Source of the DNA: Campylobacterota bacterium
GTDB lineage: Bacteria > Campylobacterota_A > Desulfurellia > JAADFJ01
Assembly (NCBI GenBank): GCA_013152955.1
Contig: JAADFJ010000039.1
Location: 1-47,587 of the forward strand
DNA: 47,587 bases
Reading direction: 5' to 3'
Notes under the pieces: model-generated
Told to the model about the DNA's origin: nothing
What the model saw: the letters and a program-made list of their open reading frames with translations, nothing else
Database searches by the model: none
In this document: positions 4,446 to 24,329 of the stretch, in pieces
Numbering within the stretch: the stretch's first letter is position 1
Layout of the letters: every line of letters begins with the position of its first letter
Made by a program: the position numbers and the translations under genes

Positions 4446-4748
4446 TTTATCTTTCCCAATGAACAATTACTATACATTTAACTGACGTTCTGCTTACCAA
4501 ACAACACGAAAACGGATCGCCGGAAGCAGCTGTCTTGATATGGAGAAACGGTTCTAATGGAAGAAATTTCACCAAAACCGTTTGAGATGAATACAATGAG
4601 TGTGTTAAATGGAAAATCCAAGTCTAACGAAAAAAGGTGAATTTACGGTAGATTGCGGGATATAATCTGACGAAAAATTGATTTTCAGAGATGTTCTGCA
4701 GTCTGAAAACAATATCGCGATCGCGCGCAAAAGACTCAACGCAACAGT

Positions 4749-4814: not shown

Positions 4815-6473
4815 TTATTGCTTTCTTAAGATTCTTCTAAGCAATTTTCCAGTTACTGTTCTGGGAAGCGAATCTGTGTATTCTATTTCTCTGGGTAATT
4901 TATAAATAGCTATATATTCTTTACAAAAATCTAAAATATCTTTTGTCAGATCGTCAGATGGCTCAACTCCATTTTCCAAAACAACAAAAGCCTTCGTTTT
5001 TTCTCCTATAATAGAATCCGGAACCCCAACAACACCACAATCTTTGACTTTGTCATGTTTTTTTATGATATCTTCAACTTCAGCAGGTCCTATTCTATAT
5101 CCTGAGCTCTTTATAACATCACTGTCCCTTGCCACAAAATAGACAAATCCATCAAGATCCTGATAAACTGCATCTCCTAAAATATTCCATCCATTCTGCA
5201 CTCTTGACTTCTGTTCTTTCAACAATCTTCCGTTGTCAATATATGGTCTCCAGTAAAGAGCGCCTGTCGGGCCTTTCATTCCAAGCAGACCTATTTCTCC
5301 CGGATGAGTGCAAGTGGTGCATATCTCACCACTCTCTTTAAAGATAGCGAGTTTAAATCCAGGAAGAGCTAAACCGATCGATCTCGGATTAGGTGATTTG
5401 GCAACGGCATTAGATGTTACCAGATGAACCATTTCGGTTGCACCTAAACCTTCAATAATCTGAATTCCTGTTTTTTTCTTCCATGCATCAAAAGTTTCCA
5501 CTCCCAGTGCATCTCCGCCGGTTGTGCACATTCTGAGAGATGAAATATCATAAGAATCAAAGTCTTTCATCTCCAAAAGTTTTCTATACGCAGTTGGCAA
5601 ACCGGTAAGAATAGTGATTTTGTGATTCTGAATTGTACTCATCATCTCGTCAGGCTTAAACTTTCCAATAAGAGAAATCGTACCGGAGTGCCTGAACGGA
5701 ATTAGAGCAAATGTCCCATAGCCTGCAGCAAAACTTACCGGAGCTGCACCTCCAAGCACATCAGTCTCTCCAAATTTCCACACATATTTACCTACAATAT
5801 CCGATTCATATATCAGCTCTCTTGCAAAATGAACGGCTCCTTTGGGAGCCCCGGTGGTACCTGAAGTGTAAAGTAAAACGCCTACATCATCAGGTGAAAC
5901 ATAAGTATACTCGAAATTCTCAGACTCAGCATCGATAAGTTTTTGATACGAGTAAAATCCTTTTGATTCTGCATCAGAAGCGTTGCCGCCAATTATGATA
6001 ACCGGGATTTTGCTGTCATCAAATGACAGTGCTGCCTGCTCTACTGCCGGAGCCAGCGGAACTGAAACAAAGATAGCTGAACTAACAGAATTGTTCACCG
6101 CATAAGCAATCTCATGATGAGACCACAAAGGTGATATCGGAACCGGTATTGCGCCTATTTTCATTATTGCAAAATTTGTCACAATAGATTCCGGAGTATT
6201 GGCGCCTCTCAGAGCAACTCTATCTTGTTCACCTATGCCTAATCTCCTAAGGCTGTTTGCCAGTTTATCGGAATCACGCTTTAGAGCGTTATATGTAACT
6301 TCTATGTTCTGAAATTTAATTGCTACTTTGTCTCCAAATCCTTTTTCAATGTTTCTGTCAAGGAACTCATAACCCAAGTTAACCTTTTCGGGCAGCTCGC
6401 CAAATTCCTCAGGAATGGTATAGTCAGGCCACATCTCTTTTGGCGGCAGAAATTCTTCCGGAATCTTTTTCAT
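4815..6473 (-). CDS. Benzoate/2-aminobenzoate-CoA ligase-like AMP-forming acyl-CoA synthetase
   Basis: 552 aa; LLYTSGTTGAPKGAVH, GLGATEM, PRTVTGKLLRRILRKQ. Confidence 0.85.
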   Translation of the reverse strand: MKKIPEEFLPPKEMWPDYTIPEEFGELPEKVNLGYEFLDRNIEKGFGDKVAIKFQNIEVTYNALKRDSDKLANSLRRLGIGEQDRVALRGANTPESIVTNFAIMKIGAIPVPISPLWSHHEIAYAVNNSVSSAIFVSVPLAPAVEQAALSFDDSKIPVIIIGGNASDAESKGFYSYQKLIDAESENFEYTYVSPDDVGVLLYTSGTTGAPKGAVHFARELIYESDIVGKYVWKFGETDVLGGAAPVSFAAGYGTFALIPFRHSGTISLIGKFKPDEMMSTIQNHKITILTGLPTAYRKLLEMKDFDSYDISSLRMCTTGGDALGVETFDAWKKKTGIQIIEGLGATEMVHLVTSNAVAKSPNPRSIGLALPGFKLAIFKESGEICTTCTHPGEIGLLGMKGPTGALYWRPYIDNGRLLKEQKSRVQNGWNILGDAVYQDLDGFVYFVARDSDVIKSSGYRIGPAEVEDIIKKHDKVKDCGVVGVPDSIIGEKTKAFVVLENGVEPSDDLTKDILDFCKEYIAIYKLPREIEYTDSLPRTVTGKLLRRILRKQ

Positions 6474-6491
6474 TTATCCACACTCCATGCT

Positions 6492-6917
6492 TTAAGTTTC
6501 GAACACGTCTTTATCTACTTCTGAATACTCGCTGACATTGAGCAGGGTATTAAGCGCTTGTTCGACGCCTATCATTTTCGATGTTGTTTTATCCATTCTC
6601 GGAAAAACCTCTTCCGGATAGCTATCCTTCTTGTTTTTATAACATAACAAAGCCGGAGCTGTTCTTCCAAAATCGGGTGCCAATGCTCCTTTGGTTCCGA
6701 ACACCGGACGAATTGATGCAGCAGGTCCATTGCCTGCACGATGATAATCCATAAATGTGTCATCTTCACTTTTGCCGGCAACATCAATTGCTTCCGTTTC
6801 AATTCCTTTTACCTTTAATGCCTCTAAAAGCTCAATAGCCTTGCTGTTGTTGCATGCAAACTGCTTGGCCGGAGAAACATCACTGCTGTAAAAAAATCTG
6901 ATCTTCTCAAATTTCAT
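6492..6917 (-). CDS. Uncharacterised 141-aa operon protein
   Basis: ORF packed in the same operon; no family recognised. Confidence 0.7.
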   Translation of the reverse strand: MKFEKIRFFYSSDVSPAKQFACNNSKAIELLEALKVKGIETEAIDVAGKSEDDTFMDYHRAGNGPAASIRPVFGTKGALAPDFGRTAPALLCYKNKKDSYPEEVFPRMDKTTSKMIGVEQALNTLLNVSEYSEVDKDVFET

Positions 6918-6930
6918 CTCATCCTCCTTT

Positions 6931-7293
6931 TTATGTCTTTCTTTGTGCTATATTTTCTATTTCTTTTTCTACAAGCTCTTTATACGCAAAATCAACTCGC
7001 CAATCCATTTTACTATCAAATGCAACCATCATAATTTGATTATTGGTACTCAACTGTTTTTGAAATGTCACGCAAACTTCATGTTTATTCTCACAATAAT
7101 GCACGCCTCTGTAGGCTCCAAAAATTCCAGCATAGCCTGTATCAAGCAATACTTCCCATGCTTTGTCTAAAAATTCTACAATTTTATCATCTTTGTAACA
7201 CTTTTCCCGATATAAGAGCCAAATCTCAGTTTGAGAGTTAGTTTGAGAGGAAGAAGATTTCTCTCCCCCTTCCTCTCGCTTTTTAGAGTTCAA
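6931..7293 (-). CDS. Uncharacterised 120-aa operon protein
   Basis: ORF overlaps the 3' end of the upstream gene; no family recognised. Confidence 0.65.
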   Translation of the reverse strand: MNSKKREEGGEKSSSSQTNSQTEIWLLYREKCYKDDKIVEFLDKAWEVLLDTGYAGIFGAYRGVHYCENKHEVCVTFQKQLSTNNQIMMVAFDSKMDWRVDFAYKELVEKEIENIAQRKT

Positions 7294-7472
7294 TCGTCTT
7301 TTTCGTATTTATCACATTTTTTCGGTGCAACAAAAGCTCCCAATTCCGCATCCTGAAAAATTCCTTTAGAGAAAGGAAAATCCAGCTTATCGCAGTAACC
7401 ATAAACATGAGGAATCATCTGCGGAGCTAATGCCGGACGAAAATTTTTACAAGATTTGCAAAGTATATCCAT
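7290..7472 (-). CDS. Small (60 aa) Cys-rich protein, possible metal/Fe-S binding
   Basis: MDILCKSCKNF...GYCDK...PKKCDKYE: CxxC plus two further Cys; translationally coupled to next ORF. Confidence 0.65.
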   Translation of the reverse strand: MDILCKSCKNFRPALAPQMIPHVYGYCDKLDFPFSKGIFQDAELGAFVAPKKCDKYEKDD

Positions 7473-7484
7473 CTGTTCCTCCCT

Positions 7485-7865
7485 TTATTCTAAAATTTCC
7501 TTCCAAATTCCAGCCTTGAGTTCCTCTGGTTTTAAAGGTCTGCCGGCAACTAAATTACCTCTCACGCTTTTTTCCATATCAATAGGTTTTCCCTGAAAAT
7601 CAGCCCTCGCCTTGGCCGGAGGAGAAACCTTGCCCAAATCATTCATAGGAGTAAAGTTGTTACCTTCTCTTTTTTCAGCATAACCGGGCAGTCTGTATTC
7701 ACTGCCTTTCGCCGCAGTCGGGCCATTCTTGATCTGCCCGTTAACCTTTTTTACAAAATAAAGCTCTCCGCAACCTGCACATTTAAAATTACCTTCATAA
7801 TCCCAAAAAGTATAAGGATCAAGATAATTTGTTACTCCGCACTTTTCACAAGTTAAAATAGACAT
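7485..7865 (-). CDS. Zinc-ribbon protein, 126 aa, uncharacterised
   Basis: CEKC...CAGC pair at N-terminus; operon context. Confidence 0.7.
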   Translation of the reverse strand: MSILTCEKCGVTNYLDPYTFWDYEGNFKCAGCGELYFVKKVNGQIKNGPTAAKGSEYRLPGYAEKREGNNFTPMNDLGKVSPPAKARADFQGKPIDMEKSVRGNLVAGRPLKPEELKAGIWKEILE

Positions 7866-7880
7866 TCATACCTCCGGTCT

Positions 7881-9242
7881 TTAGATAATACCTTTATCTT
7901 CATAGTCGGTGATCTTTCCATCGTCAAACCCAAGAAGCTTCTGATAAATATAATGATTGTCGGCACCAACAGGTTTGAACGCCCATTTTATTCTTGGAGG
8001 AGTATCGGACATATGAACAAATGCACCCTGAGTCAACACATCACCGAATGACGGGTCATCAATCCATGTAATAGCACCTCGTTCTTGCCAATGAGGATTT
8101 TCAGCAACCTCTTTAGAATTGTAGACCGGCTGACAATTAATACCATGACCGTGCAATATTTCAGCAGTCTCTTCTTTTGTTTTATCAACTGTCCATTTTT
8201 CAATTTCACCATAAAGATATTTCTGACCTTCAGGAGAAACACGCGCGCTATGGCCGGCATAATCATCCAAAAGATCAGTTCTATTCATAAGTTCAGCCAA
8301 ACGGGCAAAATCAGCGTCTTTGTACGCACTTATCAGTATAAAACCTTCTTCCTGCTCTTGAGGATTGTCTGAATCGGGATATGAAGACTTTCCGCACATC
8401 ACAATGCCATGAATGGATAACTCGGTATCCCAATTTCCCCATCTCTGGCGCACTATACCAAATTTGCCCCACATAGGCAACGAATATTCAAGCTGTCTTT
8501 GTACTCCATGAACCTGAGAATACTCTATCATCTGTCCTTCGCCCGATCTGGTATTTCTCCAATAGAGTGCACCCAAAGCTCCTATTGCTCCCATCATTCC
8601 GCCCCAATAGTCGGCAAGCCAAATTGTGTGTTTAGACGGATGTCCACCCATTGTGGCAGGTTGTCCGGTTATTGAAAAATTGCCGCCCTGAGACTGACCA
8701 AGAATATCATACGATGCTCTCGATCTTCCGGGTCCGAATCCGCCGAATCCGCCTTCCCACAAATAGACGAGTCTAGGATTAACTTCTTTTAGCTGACGAT
8801 ATCCGATACCCCATCTATCGAATGTTCCGGGACGATAATTCTCAACCATTAGATCTGATTTTGCGGCAAGGGCACGCATAATTTCCTTGCCCTCTTCCTT
8901 ATGAAAATCTAATCCGACAAAATACTCGTTTGGGTTCGCTCCGAAAAAGCCAAGTCCGGTACCTTTATCAGGATACCATCGTGAAAGAGGGTATAAAAAA
9001 GGCTCGTTAAACGGAGTTGTGTGTCTCATTGGTTCGCCAGCCTTGGGCAGCTCTATTTTGATTACCTCAGCACCAAGTTCGGCAAAATAGCTCGCAGCCG
9101 CAGGTCCCAGAATATATTGCGTACATGACAAAACACGGTATCCTTTAAATGCTTCCGGTTTTTCAAAAACATTCTTGATTCCGAATGTCTTTTCGCAGTA
9201 TTTCTCAAAACTTTCTTTACCATATTCTATATTATTACTCAT
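7881..9242 (-). CDS. CaiB/BaiF family (class III) CoA-transferase, subunit B
   Basis: GYRVLSCTQYILGPAAASYFAELGAEVIKIELP, DLMVENYRPGTFDRWGIGYRQL; contains YDILGQSQGG with catalytic-type Asp. Confidence 0.9.
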   Translation of the reverse strand: MSNNIEYGKESFEKYCEKTFGIKNVFEKPEAFKGYRVLSCTQYILGPAAASYFAELGAEVIKIELPKAGEPMRHTTPFNEPFLYPLSRWYPDKGTGLGFFGANPNEYFVGLDFHKEEGKEIMRALAAKSDLMVENYRPGTFDRWGIGYRQLKEVNPRLVYLWEGGFGGFGPGRSRASYDILGQSQGGNFSITGQPATMGGHPSKHTIWLADYWGGMMGAIGALGALYWRNTRSGEGQMIEYSQVHGVQRQLEYSLPMWGKFGIVRQRWGNWDTELSIHGIVMCGKSSYPDSDNPQEQEEGFILISAYKDADFARLAELMNRTDLLDDYAGHSARVSPEGQKYLYGEIEKWTVDKTKEETAEILHGHGINCQPVYNSKEVAENPHWQERGAITWIDDPSFGDVLTQGAFVHMSDTPPRIKWAFKPVGADNHYIYQKLLGFDDGKITDYEDKGII

Positions 9243-10642
9243 CAGATTACCCCCTCTTTCGAAAGGTTGCCCAAATCTTTCTTTGTATAACCTAATAATC
9301 TCGGATATACATCCCTGTTATCATATCCAATAGGTCTACCAATCCATTTCAAACGTGCCGGAGTTTTTTCGGCAAAAATCGGACTTGTCCCGTAGAGAAC
9401 TTTACCATAAAGTGCATCGTCTATGGCATTGACATGCCCTCTATATTTGAAATGTGCATATTCTGCAACCTCATCTATGAAAAGAACTCCTCCTGAGGCA
9501 ACCTCTTCAGCTAACAACTTATCTTCCGCTTCCTGTCTTGTATTATCTTTGCCCCATTCGCATAGAGCAGTATAGGTTTTTACCTGAGCATAATGAGGCA
9601 GTCTTCCCGTTACGACACGAAGCGATTTATCCAAAACTATCAATTCCTCAATATCGGGTCTATCTTTACCGACCGTTTTCCAGATACGATACCAAAGTCT
9701 GTCATGTCCTCCGCCAACCATTAGATATCCGTCAACAACAGGGTTAACACCATAAATATTGATAGCAAGATCCCAGTTGCCATATCTTGGTCTTATGCTG
9801 CCGTCCATTCCGTGCCATGCCCAATTGTAATCAATAATACGAATAATTGCTTCTGCGCCGGTAGCCTCAATAAACTGACCTTTTCTGGAAATCTGTTCTC
9901 TATATATAAGTGCTGTTATGATACCCATAGCAGCAGTTGTTCCCCCTACATGATCGCACATCCACAAACCGGAACGAGTAGGAATACCTCCGAACGATTT
10001 AGGAAAACCGGTTCCATGCGTAAATCCGCAAGCACATTGGGCAGTAGGTTCAAGCTCCCCAGGTCTATCTTTATCCGGACCCCATTGTCCTTTCTGTCCT
10101 ACCCAGCAATAAATAAGTCTTGGATTTGTTTTTGATAGCTGGCGATAACCTATTCCCCATGCGTCAAATTGCCCCGGTGCTGCATTTTCAATCAAAACAT
10201 CAGCTTTTAGAGCAAGTTTTTTTAGAATCTCTCTCCCCTTTTCTGTTTCGAGGTTCAATGTTATAGACTGTTTGTTTCTCATTTCATGAAGAAAATGCAT
10301 TCCAATCTCTTCTCCACGTTCTTTGTCCTTGAAATACCAATCTTTTCTTCCAAAAGGTGTGAGTTTCCGCAGTTCATCGCCTTCTGGAGGCTCAATTTGT
10401 ATTGTTTCAGCTCCAAGCTCTGAAAGCATTGAGGATGCCCAATGCCCAATAATCATTCCTGTTGAGCAGTCAAGAACTCTTATTCCATCGAGAGCTTCAG
10501 GCTTTTTGCCCGATTCTCTTGGATGCATCACCGATTCAAGAAAACGATTATACTCTATTTCTTGCTCAGGCGCACCCTGATATACCTCATCAAATGTTGG
10601 TGCCGGCGACAAAGGCCACAAGCATTTACCATTATCCCCCAT
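9242..10642 (-). CDS. CaiB/BaiF family CoA-transferase, subunit A (likely non-catalytic)
   Basis: GIRVLDCSTGMIIGHWASSMLSELGAETIQIEPP; ADVLIENAAPGQFDAWGIGYRQL. Internal ATG at 10642 preferred (GAGGAGG just upstream) over 10666. Confidence 0.88.
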   Translation of the reverse strand: MGDNGKCLWPLSPAPTFDEVYQGAPEQEIEYNRFLESVMHPRESGKKPEALDGIRVLDCSTGMIIGHWASSMLSELGAETIQIEPPEGDELRKLTPFGRKDWYFKDKERGEEIGMHFLHEMRNKQSITLNLETEKGREILKKLALKADVLIENAAPGQFDAWGIGYRQLSKTNPRLIYCWVGQKGQWGPDKDRPGELEPTAQCACGFTHGTGFPKSFGGIPTRSGLWMCDHVGGTTAAMGIITALIYREQISRKGQFIEATGAEAIIRIIDYNWAWHGMDGSIRPRYGNWDLAINIYGVNPVVDGYLMVGGGHDRLWYRIWKTVGKDRPDIEELIVLDKSLRVVTGRLPHYAQVKTYTALCEWGKDNTRQEAEDKLLAEEVASGGVLFIDEVAEYAHFKYRGHVNAIDDALYGKVLYGTSPIFAEKTPARLKWIGRPIGYDNRDVYPRLLGYTKKDLGNLSKEGVI

Positions 10643-10766
10643 TTTTCCTCCTCTATGATCATTCATCTGTGCAATAAATTAACCATCTATCACTACTTTT
10701 CACTTGTTGGTGCATCACCTCCTTATTAATATGGTTTATAGCCTTTAGGTAGCTTACGTAATTGAA

Positions 10767-10795
10767 ATTCTAACATAACTAATTATTTTTGTCAA
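10767..10795 (-). promoter_or_regulatory. Sigma70-type promoter of the CoA-transferase operon
   Basis: Minus strand TTGACA-N17-TAGAAT. Confidence 0.6.
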
Positions 10796-11178: not shown

Positions 11179-12696
11179 TCAAATAAAGGCATATTTTTTG
11201 ATAAATACCAAAGCAATTCTGCGGCAGGTTAATAAGGAGCGGAAAACAGCGTTGCCGGCAGGCAATGCTGTTTGGTTCTTGCTCTTTATTCTGTTTTCTA
11301 CTGTATCATTTCTGTTCTTATTGAGCAGCTTTACCATTCTTTTTATGTTCTGGATAGCGGCAGTCAAAAGAAACTGCTCTTCTATGTTCCATCGTCTTCT
11401 GAATTTACATACTCTTAAGCCCATCTGCTCTTTGGCTTCGCCAAATAGAGACTCTATTGTCTTTCTCTTTTTTATGGATGTGAGGTAGGCTTTAGTTTTT
11501 GAAAGCCCTCTTACTCTGTTTATCTGCTCCTCATATATATGACGGCTTAGCGATCTTGCTCTGTCTTTTGTACATTCCTGTTTGAGTCGACAGGCTTTAC
11601 AGCTTTTTATTGATGCACGCCATACAAACTGTCTGCTTGATTTATTTATACCGTGATATTTCAATATCTTATTATCCGGGCATATATATCTGTTGTTTTC
11701 CTCATCCCATCTGAATCTATCTATAGGAAATATTCCTCTCTCGTTTGCAGCTCTTGAGTCAACTATCGGTATATGGGGAGTAATACCTAAGCTGAGGAGG
11801 TTGTGTATAAACTCACCGGAGCAGTAGCCTTTATCTGCTCCTATGGTTTCAGGCTTCATCTTGAATTTAAAGATAAACTCTTTAATCATATCAAAAGCAG
11901 AGTCAACCTCACCCTTCTTACCGGGTATACTTGCTTTTACTCCTACTATAATTCTGTTCTTATTGTCCATAAGATAGTTATCAAGATGGGATAAGACAGC
12001 AGCTGTGTGTGACTTTCTTGCAAGTCTGGCATCAGGGTCTGTTTTTGATCTATGTGTCTTATTGGCTATCTTTTTGCCTGTCTGCGTGCAACGCACAGGC
12101 AGGCTTTTTTGTTTCATATTACTTTGAGGATCTGCTGCATCGGAATCATCTTCATCTGTTCTGTTTTCTCTTTCCAAGGTATTGGCATATTCAGTTGTGC
12201 TCATCTTGAGGACTATAGGTTCCATGCTGTCCATTGATGCATTGGCTTTAACCTGACTTCCGTCTACACTTAGATGAGCAGCACTTATCAATCCTTTATC
12301 TATACATCTTTTTACAATCTCATCGAATATATCCTGGAATATACCGCTCTCTTTGAATCTGTTGTGTCTGTTTTTGGAGAATACAGAATGATCCGGTACC
12401 TTATCATCTAAACTTAAACCTATAAACCATCTGTATCCTATATGCATACTTACCTCTTCGCATAATCTTCTCTCTGATGTTATGCCGTAGAGATAACCTA
12501 CAAGAAGCATCTTTATCAAAACCTCAGGATCTACAGACGGTCTGCCTGTATTACTGTATAGATGCTTCGTCTTTTTGCGTATGAAAGAAAGATCAATATA
12601 TTTGTTTATCAATCTTAAGATATGATTCTCCGGTATCATATCTCCTATATTGATATAGTAAAACAGAGGAGATTGTTTTGTCTTCTTTCCCATCAT
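11179..12696 (-). CDS. IS1182 family transposase
   Basis: GRPSVDPEVLIKMLLVGYLYGITSERRLCEEVSMHIGYRWFIGLSLDDKVPDHSVFSKNR; ATG at 12696 preceded by AAGGAG. Confidence 0.92.
   Translation of the reverse strand: MMGKKTKQSPLFYYINIGDMIPENHILRLINKYIDLSFIRKKTKHLYSNTGRPSVDPEVLIKMLLVGYLYGITSERRLCEEVSMHIGYRWFIGLSLDDKVPDHSVFSKNRHNRFKESGIFQDIFDEIVKRCIDKGLISAAHLSVDGSQVKANASMDSMEPIVLKMSTTEYANTLERENRTDEDDSDAADPQSNMKQKSLPVRCTQTGKKIANKTHRSKTDPDARLARKSHTAAVLSHLDNYLMDNKNRIIVGVKASIPGKKGEVDSAFDMIKEFIFKFKMKPETIGADKGYCSGEFIHNLLSLGITPHIPIVDSRAANERGIFPIDRFRWDEENNRYICPDNKILKYHGINKSSRQFVWRASIKSCKACRLKQECTKDRARSLSRHIYEEQINRVRGLSKTKAYLTSIKKRKTIESLFGEAKEQMGLRVCKFRRRWNIEEQFLLTAAIQNIKRMVKLLNKNRNDTVENRIKSKNQTALPAGNAVFRSLLTCRRIALVFIKKYAFI
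11244..11273. terminator. Palindrome overlapping 3' end of transposase ORF
   Basis: aaacagcgttgcc-ggca-ggcaatgctgttt, 12/13 stem pairs. Confidence 0.55.
12076..12104. repeat. GCCTG...CAGGC palindromic repeat within the transposase ORF
   Basis: gcctgtctgcgtgcaacgcacaggcaggc; encodes SLPVRCTQTG in frame; related to 29302-29321. Confidence 0.5.
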
Positions 12697-12727
12697 TGTA
12701 AAATAACTCCTTTGAAAGATATTAGAA

Positions 12728-12767
12728 ATAATAGCAGTGGTTTTGTTGCCAAAACCACTGCTATTAT
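12728..12767. terminator. Perfect 17-bp-stem palindrome at the IS 5' (transposase-proximal) end
   Basis: ataatagcagtggtttt-gttgcc-aaaaccactgctattat. Confidence 0.65.
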
Positions 12768-12896
12768 ACCATTTTTGATGGTTCAAGGCAAGCAAGTTAG
12801 GGGAGTTTTTCAACAGGCTCTAATGATGCGGAATATTTTTTAAGGAAGTATAAGATCATCGGTTTAATGCCGGTTACAAAGTATCCGGCACTTTTT

Positions 12897-12972
12897 TGGC
12901 TCCCCGGGAGGGACTCGAACCCCCGACAAGGCGGTTAACAGCCGCCTGCTCTACCAACTGAGCTACCGAGGA
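12897..12972 (-). tRNA. tRNA-Asn(GTT), CCA encoded
   Basis: TCCTCGGTAGCTCAGTTGGTAGAGCAGGCGGCTGTTAACCGCC...GGTTCGAGTCC...CCGGGGAGCCA; acceptor stem pairs 7/7. Confidence 0.96.
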
Positions 12973-12992
12973 ACACTCAATTAACAGTGCCT

Positions 12993-13020
12993 AATATATT
13001 CAGGAGTAATTGGATGTCAA
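12993..13020 (-). promoter_or_regulatory. Promoter of tRNA-Asn overlapping the 3' end of dctM
   Basis: TTGACA-N16-TATATT on minus strand. Confidence 0.55.
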
Positions 13021-14285
13021 GCAGATAAATGGAATATTTTTGGAATCATAAGCGCCATTTCCGGAACAAAGACAAGAATTGTCAGAGCTAAAATCGCCGC
13101 TACGATAAAAAACAGCTCATATTTGGAAATATCTTCAACGCTGACATTAGCCATTCTGGATGCCACAAAAAGATTGATTCCCATAGGCGGGGTAACCTGC
13201 CCAATTGCCAAATTAACTACCATCAACATTCCAAACCAGATAGGATTGAATCCAAACTGTCCCATTATGGGTATAAATATTGGTAAAAAAATATAAAAAA
13301 TCGATATTGCATCAAGAAACATTCCTGCAAACAAAAGCAGCACATTTATCATACCTATCATTTCCAGTCTTGAATGAACCGAACTAATAAAAAAATGTGT
13401 AATGGCGCCCATCGTACCTACAGTTGAAGCAGCCCATGACATGATACCTGCAAACGCTACAATGGCCATAATCATAGAACTATTCAAAAGCGATTCTACC
13501 AAAATATCGTATAGAAGCTTCCACGTCAGGCTTTTATAAATAAAAGTACCCACAAAAAGACCATAGACAACGGCAACTACAGCAGATTCGGTAGGAGTGA
13601 AAATACCGGCATATATTCCACCCATTATAATAAACGGCGTAACTATAGCCCACAAAGCTCCTTTATGTGACTTTTTGACAGTCAGGTCTTTTTGAATTTC
13701 CTCAGTGATTTTGAAACGTTTTGATACCCAATAAGATGTTATCATAAGAAACAGACCGACTACAATACCTGGAATAATACCTGCAGCAAAAAGAGCTGCC
13801 ACGGAAGTATTTGTTATATCTCCATATATAATAAGCGCTATGCTCGGAGGAATAATAATACCAAGCGAACCGCTCGCAGCAATCAAGGCAGCAGAAAACG
13901 GCTTCGGATAACCTGATTTTTCCATTCCGGGGACAAAGATAGATGTAAGTGTTGCGGTATCGGCAGGCCCGGATCCCGAAACTGCCGCCCAGAACATTCC
14001 GGCAATAACGGCAACGATCGAAAGTGAACGGTTAATATATCTTCCTAACAAAGCTGCTATACCTACAATCTTTTCAGCCATTCCAACCTTTTCCATAATC
14101 TTTCCGGCAAGAATAAAAAACGGTATGGCAAGCAGCGGGAATTTGGCAATGTTAGAATAAAAATTGGGTGAAAGCATGCTTATTCCAAGATGATGAGTGA
14201 TAATTATGAAAACACCGCTTACTCCCAAAGAGACTGCTATCGGAACACCCAGCACAATAAGACAGAGAAACAGAATAAATATCAT
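13017..14285 (-). CDS. dctM: TRAP transporter large permease (DctM-like)
   Basis: FLCLIVLGVPIAVSLGVSG, AVSGSGPADTATLTSIFVPGM, FGMLMVVNLAIGQVTPPMGINLFVAS; start ATG overlaps stop of the upstream gene. Confidence 0.92.
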   Translation of the reverse strand: MIFILFLCLIVLGVPIAVSLGVSGVFIIITHHLGISMLSPNFYSNIAKFPLLAIPFFILAGKIMEKVGMAEKIVGIAALLGRYINRSLSIVAVIAGMFWAAVSGSGPADTATLTSIFVPGMEKSGYPKPFSAALIAASGSLGIIIPPSIALIIYGDITNTSVAALFAAGIIPGIVVGLFLMITSYWVSKRFKITEEIQKDLTVKKSHKGALWAIVTPFIIMGGIYAGIFTPTESAVVAVVYGLFVGTFIYKSLTWKLLYDILVESLLNSSMIMAIVAFAGIMSWAASTVGTMGAITHFFISSVHSRLEMIGMINVLLLFAGMFLDAISIFYIFLPIFIPIMGQFGFNPIWFGMLMVVNLAIGQVTPPMGINLFVASRMANVSVEDISKYELFFIVAAILALTILVFVPEMALMIPKIFHLSA

Positions 14286-14773
14286 CTGACAGTGCGAAGT
14301 GCGGATTGAATAATTCTGAAGATTATAAGCAGCGATAAAACCGGTATAAAAGCAATATAGATCCACTCGGGCAGATTGAGAGAACTTGAAGTAACCTGAA
14401 GTTCTATCTCATCGGAAAGCTGCCCTAAACTTTCATAAAAAAGTATTGAAAATAAAGTCAAGCTCAGAAAAACGGCTGCAAATTCCAATAATTTTCTCAA
14501 AACCGGTGGAAATTTCTTTACCAAAAAAAGAACTCTGATATGAGTGTTTCTTTTAATTCCGGCTGAGATCCCTAAAAGCGTAATCACAACAAAAGCGTTT
14601 GTTTCGAGTTCCTCGGTAAAAGCCAGCGGATAATGAATCAGATATCTTGCCAGCACATTAAGAAAGGCAAGCAACACCATCAGAAGCAGAATAACGGCGC
14701 CGCTTACCTCTTCTAAATTATTTAAAAACCAGAGTGCCCTATCTTTCTTGCTTTGCAATATCTTTTTCAGCAC
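14282..14773 (-). CDS. dctQ: TRAP transporter small permease (DctQ-like)
   Basis: NVLARYLIHYPLAFTEELETNAFVVITLLGISAGIKRNTHIRV. Confidence 0.88.
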   Translation of the reverse strand: MLKKILQSKKDRALWFLNNLEEVSGAVILLLMVLLAFLNVLARYLIHYPLAFTEELETNAFVVITLLGISAGIKRNTHIRVLFLVKKFPPVLRKLLEFAAVFLSLTLFSILFYESLGQLSDEIELQVTSSSLNLPEWIYIAFIPVLSLLIIFRIIQSALRTVR

Positions 14774-15755
14774 TCTTTACGATATTCTTCCCTACAATTT
14801 TTGTCCATTTCAGCATAACCGGAGCAGTTTTTTGTTTGAACAGTTTACGCTGAGAATCAGTTAATACCGTTACCTTCATTCCCTTCGATTTGAGATAGCT
14901 AAGCGCCTTTGTGCTCCCTTCAAGTCCATTGCGAGCCCTTATTTTTTCCCAATCCATAACTTCTCTTGCAGTTCTTTTCAAAATTCGTCTGTCTTTTTTG
15001 CTGAAGCTTCTCCAGTCAGCTTTGTTTATGCCTAATATCAACGGATCAATCGCATAGTGCCAAATCGTTATATAAGGTTGAAAATTATAAACTTTATAAG
15101 GAATTATCACAACATTGACCGGATTTTCTTCTCCGTCCACAACCTTTTGGCGAAATGCGGGAACTGCATCAGCCCAGTTCATAGATACTGGATTTGCGCC
15201 AAGAGCTCTGAATATATCTATAAAAATGGGGCTTCCTACAACTCTTATTTTTAAACCTTTCAGATCATTCGGAACTCTTATAGGCCGCTTGCTGTTTGTC
15301 AGCGCCCTGAATCCGTTTTCACCCCATCCGATACCTATTACGCCTTTTCTTCTTAATATCGCAAAGAGTTTTTTTCCTGTTCTACCTCCGGTTACAGCAT
15401 CAACCTCCTGATAGTTTTTGAAAAAGAACGGAAGCGAAAAGAGATTTAACGGTTTTATTATCGTCGACCAGTTAATAGTTGAGCCGAGTGCAAAATCGGC
15501 AACCCCGCGCCTTAATAGCAAAAATTCATTTGTTTGATTTCCGGCAAAAAGCTGTCCTGCAAAATACGGTTTGATGCTTATCCTTCCGTCGGTTCTCTCC
15601 CTAACCAAATTGGCAAATTTTGTTGCCGCTTCACCCCATGGACCTTTTGGTCCCACAACAATGCTCATCTTGTACTGAGATTTGTATGCAAATGACGGTA
15701 TCGTCAGTAACATAGCAAACAGAGCTACAAGCAGACTCTTGAAGATATTGCTCAT
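14739..15755 (-). CDS. dctP: TRAP transporter substrate-binding protein (DctP-like)
   Basis: Signal peptide; LFSLPFFFKNYQEVDAVTGG, KGLKIRVVGSPIFIDIFRALGANPVSMNWADAVPAFRQKVVDGEENP. Confidence 0.92.
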   Translation of the reverse strand: MSNIFKSLLVALFAMLLTIPSFAYKSQYKMSIVVGPKGPWGEAATKFANLVRERTDGRISIKPYFAGQLFAGNQTNEFLLLRRGVADFALGSTINWSTIIKPLNLFSLPFFFKNYQEVDAVTGGRTGKKLFAILRRKGVIGIGWGENGFRALTNSKRPIRVPNDLKGLKIRVVGSPIFIDIFRALGANPVSMNWADAVPAFRQKVVDGEENPVNVVIIPYKVYNFQPYITIWHYAIDPLILGINKADWRSFSKKDRRILKRTAREVMDWEKIRARNGLEGSTKALSYLKSKGMKVTVLTDSQRKLFKQKTAPVMLKWTKIVGKNIVKSAEKDIAKQER

Positions 15756-21482: not shown

Positions 21483-22328
21483 TTATCCGATTAACTTCGG
21501 CATTAATACGGTTAATGATTCAGGCTCTACTCTTATACTAAACGGCGTTTTGCCTATCCAGTCACCATCAACATGCACATCCGCACCGGATTGATTTATA
21601 ATAATATTCTTTGCCTTTAGATAGACAGCATCTTTCGATCTTTTAGATAACATTATAGCCGCCATATATTTTAGAACAAATCTCTTTTTAAATATTGCGA
21701 CATCAAGCGTATCAGAAAACAGGTCGGCGTCGGGAGTGGCTGAAAACCAGCCTCCGTATCGCCTTCCGTTCCCTATAACTGCAGAATATCCCTTGATCTT
21801 TCTGCCATCAACAATAAACTCAATCTTTCTGCTGTTTAACTTGAGACAGCCCAAAGCAGATGCAATATATGCAATTTTTCCCGTTAACCGTTTTAATCGC
21901 TCATCAACCATACGTACTGCGGCCGCATCAAGTCCGATACCTGCCATTTGAGCAAAATAGTGTCCGTTGGCGTTACCCAAAGTTATTCTTTTTTCAACAC
22001 CGCCATCAATCAGCTGTAACGCCTTTACGGGATTTCTTGGAATTCCGGCTTCCAGGGCAAAAACATCACTTGTTCCGCAAGGCAGCACAAGAAGGGCCGA
22101 CTTTTTGCCGGCCAAAAGATTTACGGCAAAATTAACAGCGGCATCACCGCCATATACCGGCACAAGATCGTAATCTTCTATGTTATTATCATTTTTATGT
22201 TCGCCTATAATTTCAATAACCGGATCAATGCCTCTTTTTCTTATATTGTCGGTAACTGTTTTTAGCATAGATTCGCTGAATCGTCTCGAAAAAGGATTGA
22301 TAATTAGAAGTACTTTTTTATATCTCAT
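21483..22328 (-). CDS. Diacylglycerol/lipid kinase family protein (YegS/LCB5-like)
   Basis: LLIINPFSRR, GGDAAVNFAVN, LPCGTSDVFALEAGIP. Confidence 0.85.
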   Translation of the reverse strand: MRYKKVLLIINPFSRRFSESMLKTVTDNIRKRGIDPVIEIIGEHKNDNNIEDYDLVPVYGGDAAVNFAVNLLAGKKSALLVLPCGTSDVFALEAGIPRNPVKALQLIDGGVEKRITLGNANGHYFAQMAGIGLDAAAVRMVDERLKRLTGKIAYIASALGCLKLNSRKIEFIVDGRKIKGYSAVIGNGRRYGGWFSATPDADLFSDTLDVAIFKKRFVLKYMAAIMLSKRSKDAVYLKAKNIIINQSGADVHVDGDWIGKTPFSIRVEPESLTVLMPKLIG

Positions 22329-23076
22329 CTATCTTTAGCTGCATGCCGTCATACGCCGCTATTACCTCTATTCCAAATTTAGACAGTTCGGAAGCTATTT
22401 TGTCGGGATCTTCCCTGAGTACTTCTGTGCTGAAGTGCGTGATAACAACCTTTTTCGGTTTTACTGTCAATGCAATAGGTATAACATCATTAACAGAAAG
22501 ATGATATATATTTTCTCTTGAATGAACAAACACGGTATTTATTATCAATATATCAATATTGGTAAAAACTTTTTTTAAGGGTTCAAAATAGAGTGTATCC
22601 GAAATATAACCGACGGAGCACAAATTTCCATCAAATCGAACCGCAAAATTTTCTACAGGATGCATAAGCTTTAGCGGAGTTGAAATTTTTATATTACCCA
22701 CCGACCATGTTCCTCCGGTGCCGGTTCTGATATTGTCATAGTTGTTTCTATTATATTTCAATATCACCGGGTCATCATCCCATGCATCATCAGGAGCAAA
22801 AACAGCACCGTGATGTTTTCTTCCGCCGCTTGTCATAGATTCAACAATACTGTTGATATCAGCAGAATGATCAAGATGGCGATGCGAAAGATAGACCGCA
22901 TCAATGTCTCTTGCAGACCTTCCGGACTCAATCAGTTTGATCAGGCTGCCGGGTCCGGGATCAACAAGAATATTTGTTCCCGAAAGAGAGAGCCAGATAC
23001 CTCCTGAGGCGCGTATTTGATTAAATACCGAAAATCTCCCTCCTGCCGTTCCAAAAAATTTGATATAGTTATTCAT
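22318..23076 (-). CDS. MBL-fold metallo-hydrolase
   Basis: LSHRHLDHSADINSIVE; VVITHFSTEVL. Confidence 0.88.
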   Translation of the reverse strand: MNNYIKFFGTAGGRFSVFNQIRASGGIWLSLSGTNILVDPGPGSLIKLIESGRSARDIDAVYLSHRHLDHSADINSIVESMTSGGRKHHGAVFAPDDAWDDDPVILKYNRNNYDNIRTGTGGTWSVGNIKISTPLKLMHPVENFAVRFDGNLCSVGYISDTLYFEPLKKVFTNIDILIINTVFVHSRENIYHLSVNDVIPIALTVKPKKVVITHFSTEVLREDPDKIASELSKFGIEVIAAYDGMQLKIDEI

Positions 23077-24329
23077 AAAATAGCAGCTCCGGTATCATGA
23101 TCGGTCACATTGCAGATGGTAGTATCATAAAAATTTCCTCTTTTTAAGCGGTCTTGCAGAAAAACCGGAAAATAGTAGCTTGTTCTGCCGCTGTGTTCAT
23201 CCTCAGCCAATATTCTTACCTGCTTGCCCAAAAACTGCTTTCTATATTTGATGTTTTTTTTATTTACAATACCCTTAAGAAGTTTCACGCGCTTTTTTTG
23301 AGCCGATTTTTCAAAGGGCTGATCGTAACTATTAGTGCCTTTCCTGGGCGAATAAGAAAATGGGTGAAGATATACAAACGGCATATCCATGACAAAAGAG
23401 ACGGTTTTGAGAAATTCTTTATCATCTTCACCGGGAAATCCCACAATTATATCTGTCCCAATTGCAATATCAGGTATCTTATTTATAAGGTTTTCTATCT
23501 TTTTTTTATACACAGCCGTATTGTACGGTCTCCTCATTAGAGATAATATTTTGTCCGATCCGCTCTGAAGAGATATATGAAGATGTCTGCATATCTTAAC
23601 ACTGTCCAAAAGTGATATTAGATCTCTGTCTAAGGCGGTTATACCGATTGAGCTTATTCTTATTCTGAACTCCTTATCAATGGCAATCAGCTGTCTTAGA
23701 AGCTCATAGAGAGAAGTCCCCAAGTCCTTTCCATAAGAGCCGATGTCGGTGCCGGAAAGAACGATCTCTCTATAACCGCCCGATAAAAGATTTTCTACAT
23801 CATCTATTACCATCTCAATCGGTCTGCTTATAATCTTTCTACCTCGTACAACCGGAATTATGCAATAGCTGCAGCTGCCGGAACATCCTTCTTCAATTTT
23901 TAGAAATCCTCTTGTTCGCCCCTTCATACCGGTTATGCCGGAGAACTTCAAATCGGCATTTTCAGTCCATTGCTGAACATCCGACCCTGATGCAATCTGC
24001 CTCAAAGCAGTCACAATTCTTTTTCTGGCTCCTCCAAAGAGAAACGCCGAAACACCATATTCTTCTCTTAGCTTGTCGGCATAATCTTTTGTGATGCACC
24101 CCGCAACAATTACGTCCTTTTCCGCATTCACCGCCTTTCTAACCCATCTGGCAACATCCTTCTCTGCTCCGCTTGTAACAGCACACGAATTGATAACGGC
24201 AATTGTGGAACTTCTAAGATCATTCGCGACAAAGATACCGCTGCTCTCACATTGTTCCCTCATCCATTCGGTATCAACCTGATTCATCTTGCAGCCTACA
24301 GTTGCGAAAAAAAGTTTGAGGCTATTCAA
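23073..24329 (-). CDS. mtaB: tRNA (t6A37) methylthiotransferase MtaB-like radical SAM
   Basis: TVGCKMNQVDTEWM, INSCAVTSGAEKDV, EGCSGSCSYCIIPVVRGRKIISRP. Confidence 0.9.
   Translation of the reverse strand: MNSLKLFFATVGCKMNQVDTEWMREQCESSGIFVANDLRSSTIAVINSCAVTSGAEKDVARWVRKAVNAEKDVIVAGCITKDYADKLREEYGVSAFLFGGARKRIVTALRQIASGSDVQQWTENADLKFSGITGMKGRTRGFLKIEEGCSGSCSYCIIPVVRGRKIISRPIEMVIDDVENLLSGGYREIVLSGTDIGSYGKDLGTSLYELLRQLIAIDKEFRIRISSIGITALDRDLISLLDSVKICRHLHISLQSGSDKILSLMRRPYNTAVYKKKIENLINKIPDIAIGTDIIVGFPGEDDKEFLKTVSFVMDMPFVYLHPFSYSPRKGTNSYDQPFEKSAQKKRVKLLKGIVNKKNIKYRKQFLGKQVRILAEDEHSGRTSYYFPVFLQDRLKRGNFYDTTICNVTDHDTGAAIL

Follow-up and report, generated by a model that had tools for sequence, protein, structure and literature searches.

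A seven-gene operon of paired family III CoA-transferase subunits, four conserved small proteins and an acyl-CoA ligase as a candidate acid-activation module

The contig JAADFJ010000039.1 of a Campylobacterota bacterium (assembly GCA_013152955.1), analysed over its whole length of 47,587 nucleotides (nt) and referred to here as the window, carries seven tightly packed open reading frames (ORFs) on the minus strand between positions 4815 and 10666 (Table 1). It is one contig of a 1.51-Mb, 106-contig genome that is 88% complete. In order, the genes encode two class III (family III) coenzyme A (CoA)-transferase subunits (A and B), a zinc-ribbon protein, a Cys-rich protein of 60 amino acids (aa) with four Cys (Cys4), proteins of 120 and 141 aa, and an AMP-forming acyl-CoA ligase. 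All seven ORFs named in the original prediction, which was made from the letters of the window, are present, and Pfam matched CoA_transf_3 (PF02515) in both A and B and AMP-binding (PF00501) in the ligase. A and B overlap by 1 nt and the 60-aa and 120-aa genes by 4 nt, the other gaps measure 12–18 nt, and a Shine-Dalgarno-like motif precedes most of the genes. The seven genes look like a single transcription unit. As described below, the core of this set recurs in distant bacterial lineages and therefore looks like a real but undescribed acid-activation machine.

The single promoter proposed for the operon, TTGACA-N17-TAGAAT, held up. It scored highest of the 16 promoter-like sites in the region, with an 11/12 match and a TG-extended −10 element, and it aligns with a similar site that precedes the operon in G020 and G021, the two sister genomes; the number of sites is itself at chance level, shuffled sequences giving a mean of 19.2. 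The start of the A subunit probably lies at the internal ATG at 10642, giving 466 aa, and not at the first ATG chosen by the ORF caller (10666), because GGAGG stands directly before the former and only that start is an ATG in G020, whose ORF also comprises 466 aa.

Table 1. Features of the operon and its borders, with positions in the window.
Feature	Position	Strand	Remarks
Sigma-70-type promoter	10767–10795	−	TTGACA-N17-TAGAAT, TG before −10; 11/12 match; aligned site in G021 and G020
Class III CoA-transferase A	9242–10666	−	474 aa as ORF; PF02515, E 2.8e-80
Class III CoA-transferase B	7881–9242	−	453 aa; PF02515, E 4e-86
Zinc-ribbon protein	7485–7865	−	126 aa; Cys pairs C6/C9 and C29/C32; conserved NYLDP motif
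Cys-rich (Cys4) protein	7290–7472	−	60 aa; invariant C5, C8, C27 and C53
120-aa protein	6931–7293	−	TTG start overlapping the stop of the preceding 60-aa gene by 4 nt; fold not assigned
141-aa protein	6492–6917	−	Predicted thioredoxin-like fold without CxxC
AMP-forming acyl-CoA ligase	4815–6473	−	552 aa; PF00501, E 5e-71; related to benzoate/anthranilate-CoA ligases
Terminator-like hairpin, weak	4715–4730	−	3′ of the last gene; one of 6 found, against 6.0 expected by chance

The catalytic Asp of family III (D169 of FRC, in LGDSNSG) aligns with D238 of A, in ORF numbering, and with D211 of B, and it is invariant in every orthologue of the two module subunits compared. The Asp of the YDILGQ motif, also considered as the catalytic residue, was ruled out by this alignment. 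Since each subunit keeps the catalytic Asp, both may be active. Trp takes its place in all seven of the other paired A subunits compared, and in those pairs probably only B is active. In a tree with other paired CaiB genes, module A and module B each form a clade of their own (support 100/100), and the A clade joins the other A subunits (95/97). The other pairs, which belong to the same and neighbouring genomes and lie at L054–L056, L073 and L074, share the A/B pairing and the A ancestry with the module but differ in the Trp of their A subunits and in having no such small proteins nearby. At L054:5934–11398 and L055:5045–10457, four family III genes stand in a row as two pairs, whose A members have Trp for Asp. 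The genome of the window also carries CoA-transferase pairs elsewhere, beside beta-oxidation and carboxylase genes. Plasmid searches returned only generic CaiB genes at ~30% identity.

None of the four small proteins passed a Pfam or NCBIfam cut-off, and no Pfam, NCBIfam, PHROGs or PDB sequence match accounts for them; searches of plasmids gave nothing convincing for the zinc-ribbon or the 141-aa protein. In comparison with the two congeners, the ratio of nonsynonymous to synonymous substitution rates (dN/dS) is 0.03–0.08 for the zinc ribbon, 0.09–0.14 for the 60-aa protein, 0.08–0.09 for the 120-aa protein and 0.05–0.09 for the 141-aa protein. Given these low values and the gene order kept in other genomes, the small ORFs, judged by their sequences, are genuine proteins and not chance frames. 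The Cys of the zinc ribbon are invariant across 9 orthologues and the four Cys of the 60-aa protein across 10, and their spacing suggests that both proteins bind metal. Structure prediction, which had been recommended for the small proteins, succeeded in part. The 141-aa model is confident (predicted local distance difference test 84.9, predicted template modelling score 0.80) and has a predicted thioredoxin-like fold, but the model of the 60-aa protein is poor. The best PDB fold matches of the former are thioredoxins, at weak scores (E 0.055, template modelling score 0.41), and a weak Glrx-like match (E 0.039) appeared in one of the 10 orthologues compared; the protein has no CxxC redox motif, and C22 is present in 9/10 orthologues. 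For the 60-aa protein, a role as a BssC-like or high-potential iron-sulfur protein-like subunit found no support, with no PDB or Pfam match and only the poor model. Both congeners have the 120-aa protein, and it is matched weakly (E about 5e-7) in G097, which belongs to another lineage. Profiles of the small proteins matched nothing next to the other CoA-transferase pairs tested, those of the same genome included, which supports their specificity to the CoA-transferase clade of the module in the loci examined. A distant homologue of the 141-aa protein (profile E about 5e-13) lies at L068:9017–10251 (G055) directly upstream of a PIN-domain gene, in an antitoxin-toxin-like arrangement, and the family may extend beyond the CoA-transferase module.

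Among solved proteins, the ligase is closest to anthranilate- and benzoate-CoA ligases. Like the latter, it has the TEM-x-H motif of the substrate pocket (GATEMVHLVTSN; TEMVH) and the TGK lysine (TGKLLRR), but it scores 290 bits against the benzoate-CoA ligase family TIGR02262, below the cut-off of 375. The genome has a benzoate-CoA ligase of its own on contig C83, which reaches 605 bits in that family and is ~30% identical to the operon ligase. Hence, the operon ligase probably serves an acid other than benzoate.

To follow the distribution of the module, 193 and then 386 genomes were sampled, together with searches in two small phyla; these samples overlap, and frequencies taken from them are not independent. 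A search for the ordered gene set recovered the complete seven-gene order in two congeneric metagenome-assembled genomes (G020 and G021), at 70–98% identity and with dN/dS of 0.03–0.14, and again in G097, at 33–66% identity. This arrangement, A-B-zinc ribbon-60 aa-120 aa-141 aa-ligase, is type 1 and occurs in the genus of the window and in G097, where a gene for an IclR regulator lies directly upstream, which fits acid catabolism. Type 2 was found in eight genomes (G045, G192, G194, G195, G196, G197, G198 and G200). It keeps A, B, the zinc ribbon and the Cys4 protein as far as the contigs extend, and the 141-aa protein where the contig reaches it. Where type 2 is seen whole, two other small ORFs occupy the slot of the 120-aa gene and are followed by a metallo-beta-lactamase-fold/TPR protein and the 141-aa homologue, and the ligase is absent. 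Several of the type 2 contigs are short, with parts out of view; G198 shows only A, B, the zinc ribbon and the Cys4 protein. G194 is congeneric with G097, yet it has type 2.

The 141-aa and zinc-ribbon proteins were not found in the other 22 genomes of the class searched, which makes the distribution of the unit patchy, through either transfer or loss. Two peptide patterns of the A subunit, used in a contig scan, matched only the two sister genomes. In the phylum of G111, which has many CaiB copies, no module was found in the 2 genomes searched. The upstream flanks of the operon differ among congeners, and G000 and G020 have a YmdB-like gene on the downstream side. In the window, a DDE transposase gene sits between the operon and genes for the TRAP transporter proteins DctP, DctQ and DctM (11179–15755); the transporter was ruled out as part of the unit, being absent from the sister flanks read. 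As for the original prediction, its small ORFs are conserved in homologous operons, and no characterised pathway that matches the set was found; nor is the gene set described in the part of the literature that was searched. The observation is indeed stronger than could be known from the window, since conservation of the small proteins extends to distant lineages and to operons with either of two partners.

The host, a vent bacterium of a Hippea-related genus, has a benzoyl-CoA pathway of the bzd type (class I). BzdO, Had and Oah score over their family cut-offs and BzdN and BzdQ just under, and on C83 the benzoate-CoA ligase gene stands beside the genes for the bzd-type benzoyl-CoA reductase, Had and Oah (L083:8566–11910 and L014:2–10139). 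This pathway makes the degradation of aromatic acids by the host plausible. Benzoate or aromatic metabolism is not mentioned in a comparative genomics paper on the Desulfurellaceae (PMC5317093). Elsewhere in the genome, a pair resembling 2-hydroxyacyl-CoA dehydratase, under the family cut-offs, lies on contig C18 (L082:2391–5181). Beside it lie genes that, by reading of the sequence, would encode a phenylacetate-CoA ligase, a thiolase and a zinc-ribbon protein of the DUF35 type.

A close parallel in logic is the carnitine pathway, in which the ATP-spending CoA ligase CaiC primes the family III CoA-transferase CaiB. The module would likewise combine an AMP-forming ligase with a family III CoA-transferase. 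It differs from CaiB/CaiC in that CaiB is a single gene, whereas the module has two distinct subunits and adds four small proteins; no CaiD-like crotonobetainyl-CoA hydratase is encoded among the seven genes, and the ligase resembles aryl-acid ligases. On this analogy, our preferred though tentative reading of the operon is a self-contained acid-activation and CoA-exchange module with accessory small proteins, in which we have somewhat less than even confidence. At the cost of ATP, the ligase would convert an aryl or related carboxylic acid to the first CoA thioester. A/B would then exchange CoA between this thioester and another acid by the ping-pong mechanism of family III, via an aspartyl anhydride at D211 of B and D238 of A, and CoA would be recycled with no further ATP, as by CaiC and CaiB for carnitine. 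All four small proteins, the zinc-ribbon, Cys4, 120-aa and thioredoxin-like ones, would serve the transferase as accessory or scaffold subunits and may contain structural metal sites. In type 2 operons, the metallo-beta-lactamase-fold protein would stand in the place of the ligase, perhaps freeing the acid from a thioester or lactone. In this scheme, we infer the CoA donor and acceptor, complex formation, metal binding and the direction of flux.

The CoA-exchange reading is supported by the seven-gene order in three congeneric genomes and G097, the ligase-free type in eight genomes, the Asp in both subunits, the ligase signature, the IclR regulator in G097, the bzd-type pathway of the host and the specificity of the small proteins. 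Several points weigh against it. A dehydrogenase, hydratase or dehydratase to act on the product is not encoded in the operon, and the genome already has a canonical benzoate-CoA ligase. Type 2 operons lack the ligase, which is therefore not essential to the core of the module. G097 gave no match to PF06050 (benzoyl-CoA reductase/2-hydroxyacyl-CoA dehydratase), and the module thus has no consistent link to class I benzoyl-CoA degradation. The physical complex of A/B with the small proteins is also presumed, as is a role in degradation.

The want of a separate next-step enzyme in the operon would suit another explanation, namely that A/B join the small metal-site proteins in a single new enzyme of several subunits, which goes beyond CoA transfer (for example, thioester-coupled redox, condensation or a ring reaction) and for which the ligase or the metallo-beta-lactamase-fold protein would provide or release the acyl-CoA. 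Both operon types do keep the zinc-ribbon and Cys4 proteins with A/B, as well as the thioredoxin-like protein on contigs that extend to it, and these small proteins match nothing known. Yet the ordinary family III Asp is kept in both A and B, so plain CoA transfer suffices, the metal sites are read from Cys spacing only, and the thioredoxin-like protein has no redox CxxC; we consider this enzyme unlikely. The opposite view takes the module for an ordinary CoA-transferase pair from a beta-oxidation cluster for acids or terpenes, with catalysis confined to B and the small proteins merely carried along; it draws on the other pairs of the genome, which adjoin beta-oxidation and carboxylase genes. 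It appears quite improbable, as module A keeps the Asp that is Trp in seven other A subunits, distant lineages retain the small genes in the same order, these genes are under purifying selection, and no beta-oxidation genes adjoin the operon. Still less credit is given to a route of the phthalate type, of which SptAB-dependent phthalate degradation is the known system: the transferase or ligase would make an ortho-dicarboxylic aryl-CoA and a UbiD-type enzyme would decarboxylate it to benzoyl-CoA. The host has UbiD-family genes and the benzoyl-CoA pathway, but UbiD is near-universal in the genomes and the control set and therefore does not discriminate, none lies in or beside the operon, and the missing PF06050 of G097 counts here as well. 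On contig C89 of the same genome (25003–25633), a UbiD-family match is split into two overlapping pieces, likely by a frameshift or assembly error, and an AMP-ligase gene (21887–23422) lies nearby.

The original prediction compared the pair with benzylsuccinate CoA-transferase BbsEF. The resemblance in architecture stands: two different class III subunits lie side by side, and BbsEF chains are among the solved relatives. The sequences show no special closeness, formyl-CoA and hydroxymethylglutaryl-CoA transferases being at least as near to A and B as the solved BbsEF chains are, and the module differs further in having extra small proteins, a ligase in the operon and no bbs/bss genes. A BbsEF-type transferase of a fumarate-addition pathway for toluene or alkanes would use succinyl-CoA, the CoA donor of BbsEF (PMC10818641), and an arylalkyl- or alkylsuccinate acceptor. 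No pyruvate formate-lyase-like glycyl-radical enzyme (PF02901) was found in the nine module-bearing genomes, which are incomplete drafts, whereas control genomes gave matches; for this reason the route is unlikely. A pathway that activates with succinyl-CoA would also need no ligase in the operon, and of the explanations weighed here we give this one the least credence. The Magic cluster of anaerobic benzene degraders, which has homologues from hydrothermal vents, likewise places two type III CoA-transferases together with an AMP-forming acyl-CoA synthetase in a single conserved gene group (PMC13101534). Its two flavoproteins (flavin adenine dinucleotide (FAD) oxidoreductases), the Fe-S protein between ligase and CoA-transferases and the MaoC dehydratases are missing from the module. 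No FAD oxidoreductases or Fe-S protein of the Magic type were found in the operon or the sister operons, and the main text of the Magic cluster paper names no zinc or thioredoxin-like protein (PMC13101534).

To our knowledge, no family III CoA-transferase needs accessory subunits. A clade in which both chains retain the catalytic Asp and are accompanied by dedicated small proteins would be new to the family in its architecture, and the four small protein families carry no annotation. In its boldest form, the module would be a new multi-subunit CoA-dependent enzyme of an undescribed pathway, a pair with two active sites that works only with the zinc-ribbon, Cys4 and thioredoxin-like subunits and with a lineage-dependent ligase or metallo-beta-lactamase-fold partner. 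We hold this to be rather unlikely. If the substrate is an aromatic or related acid, the module would extend anaerobic catabolism by one step in a genus that is related to Hippea and has an unexpected benzoyl-CoA pathway.

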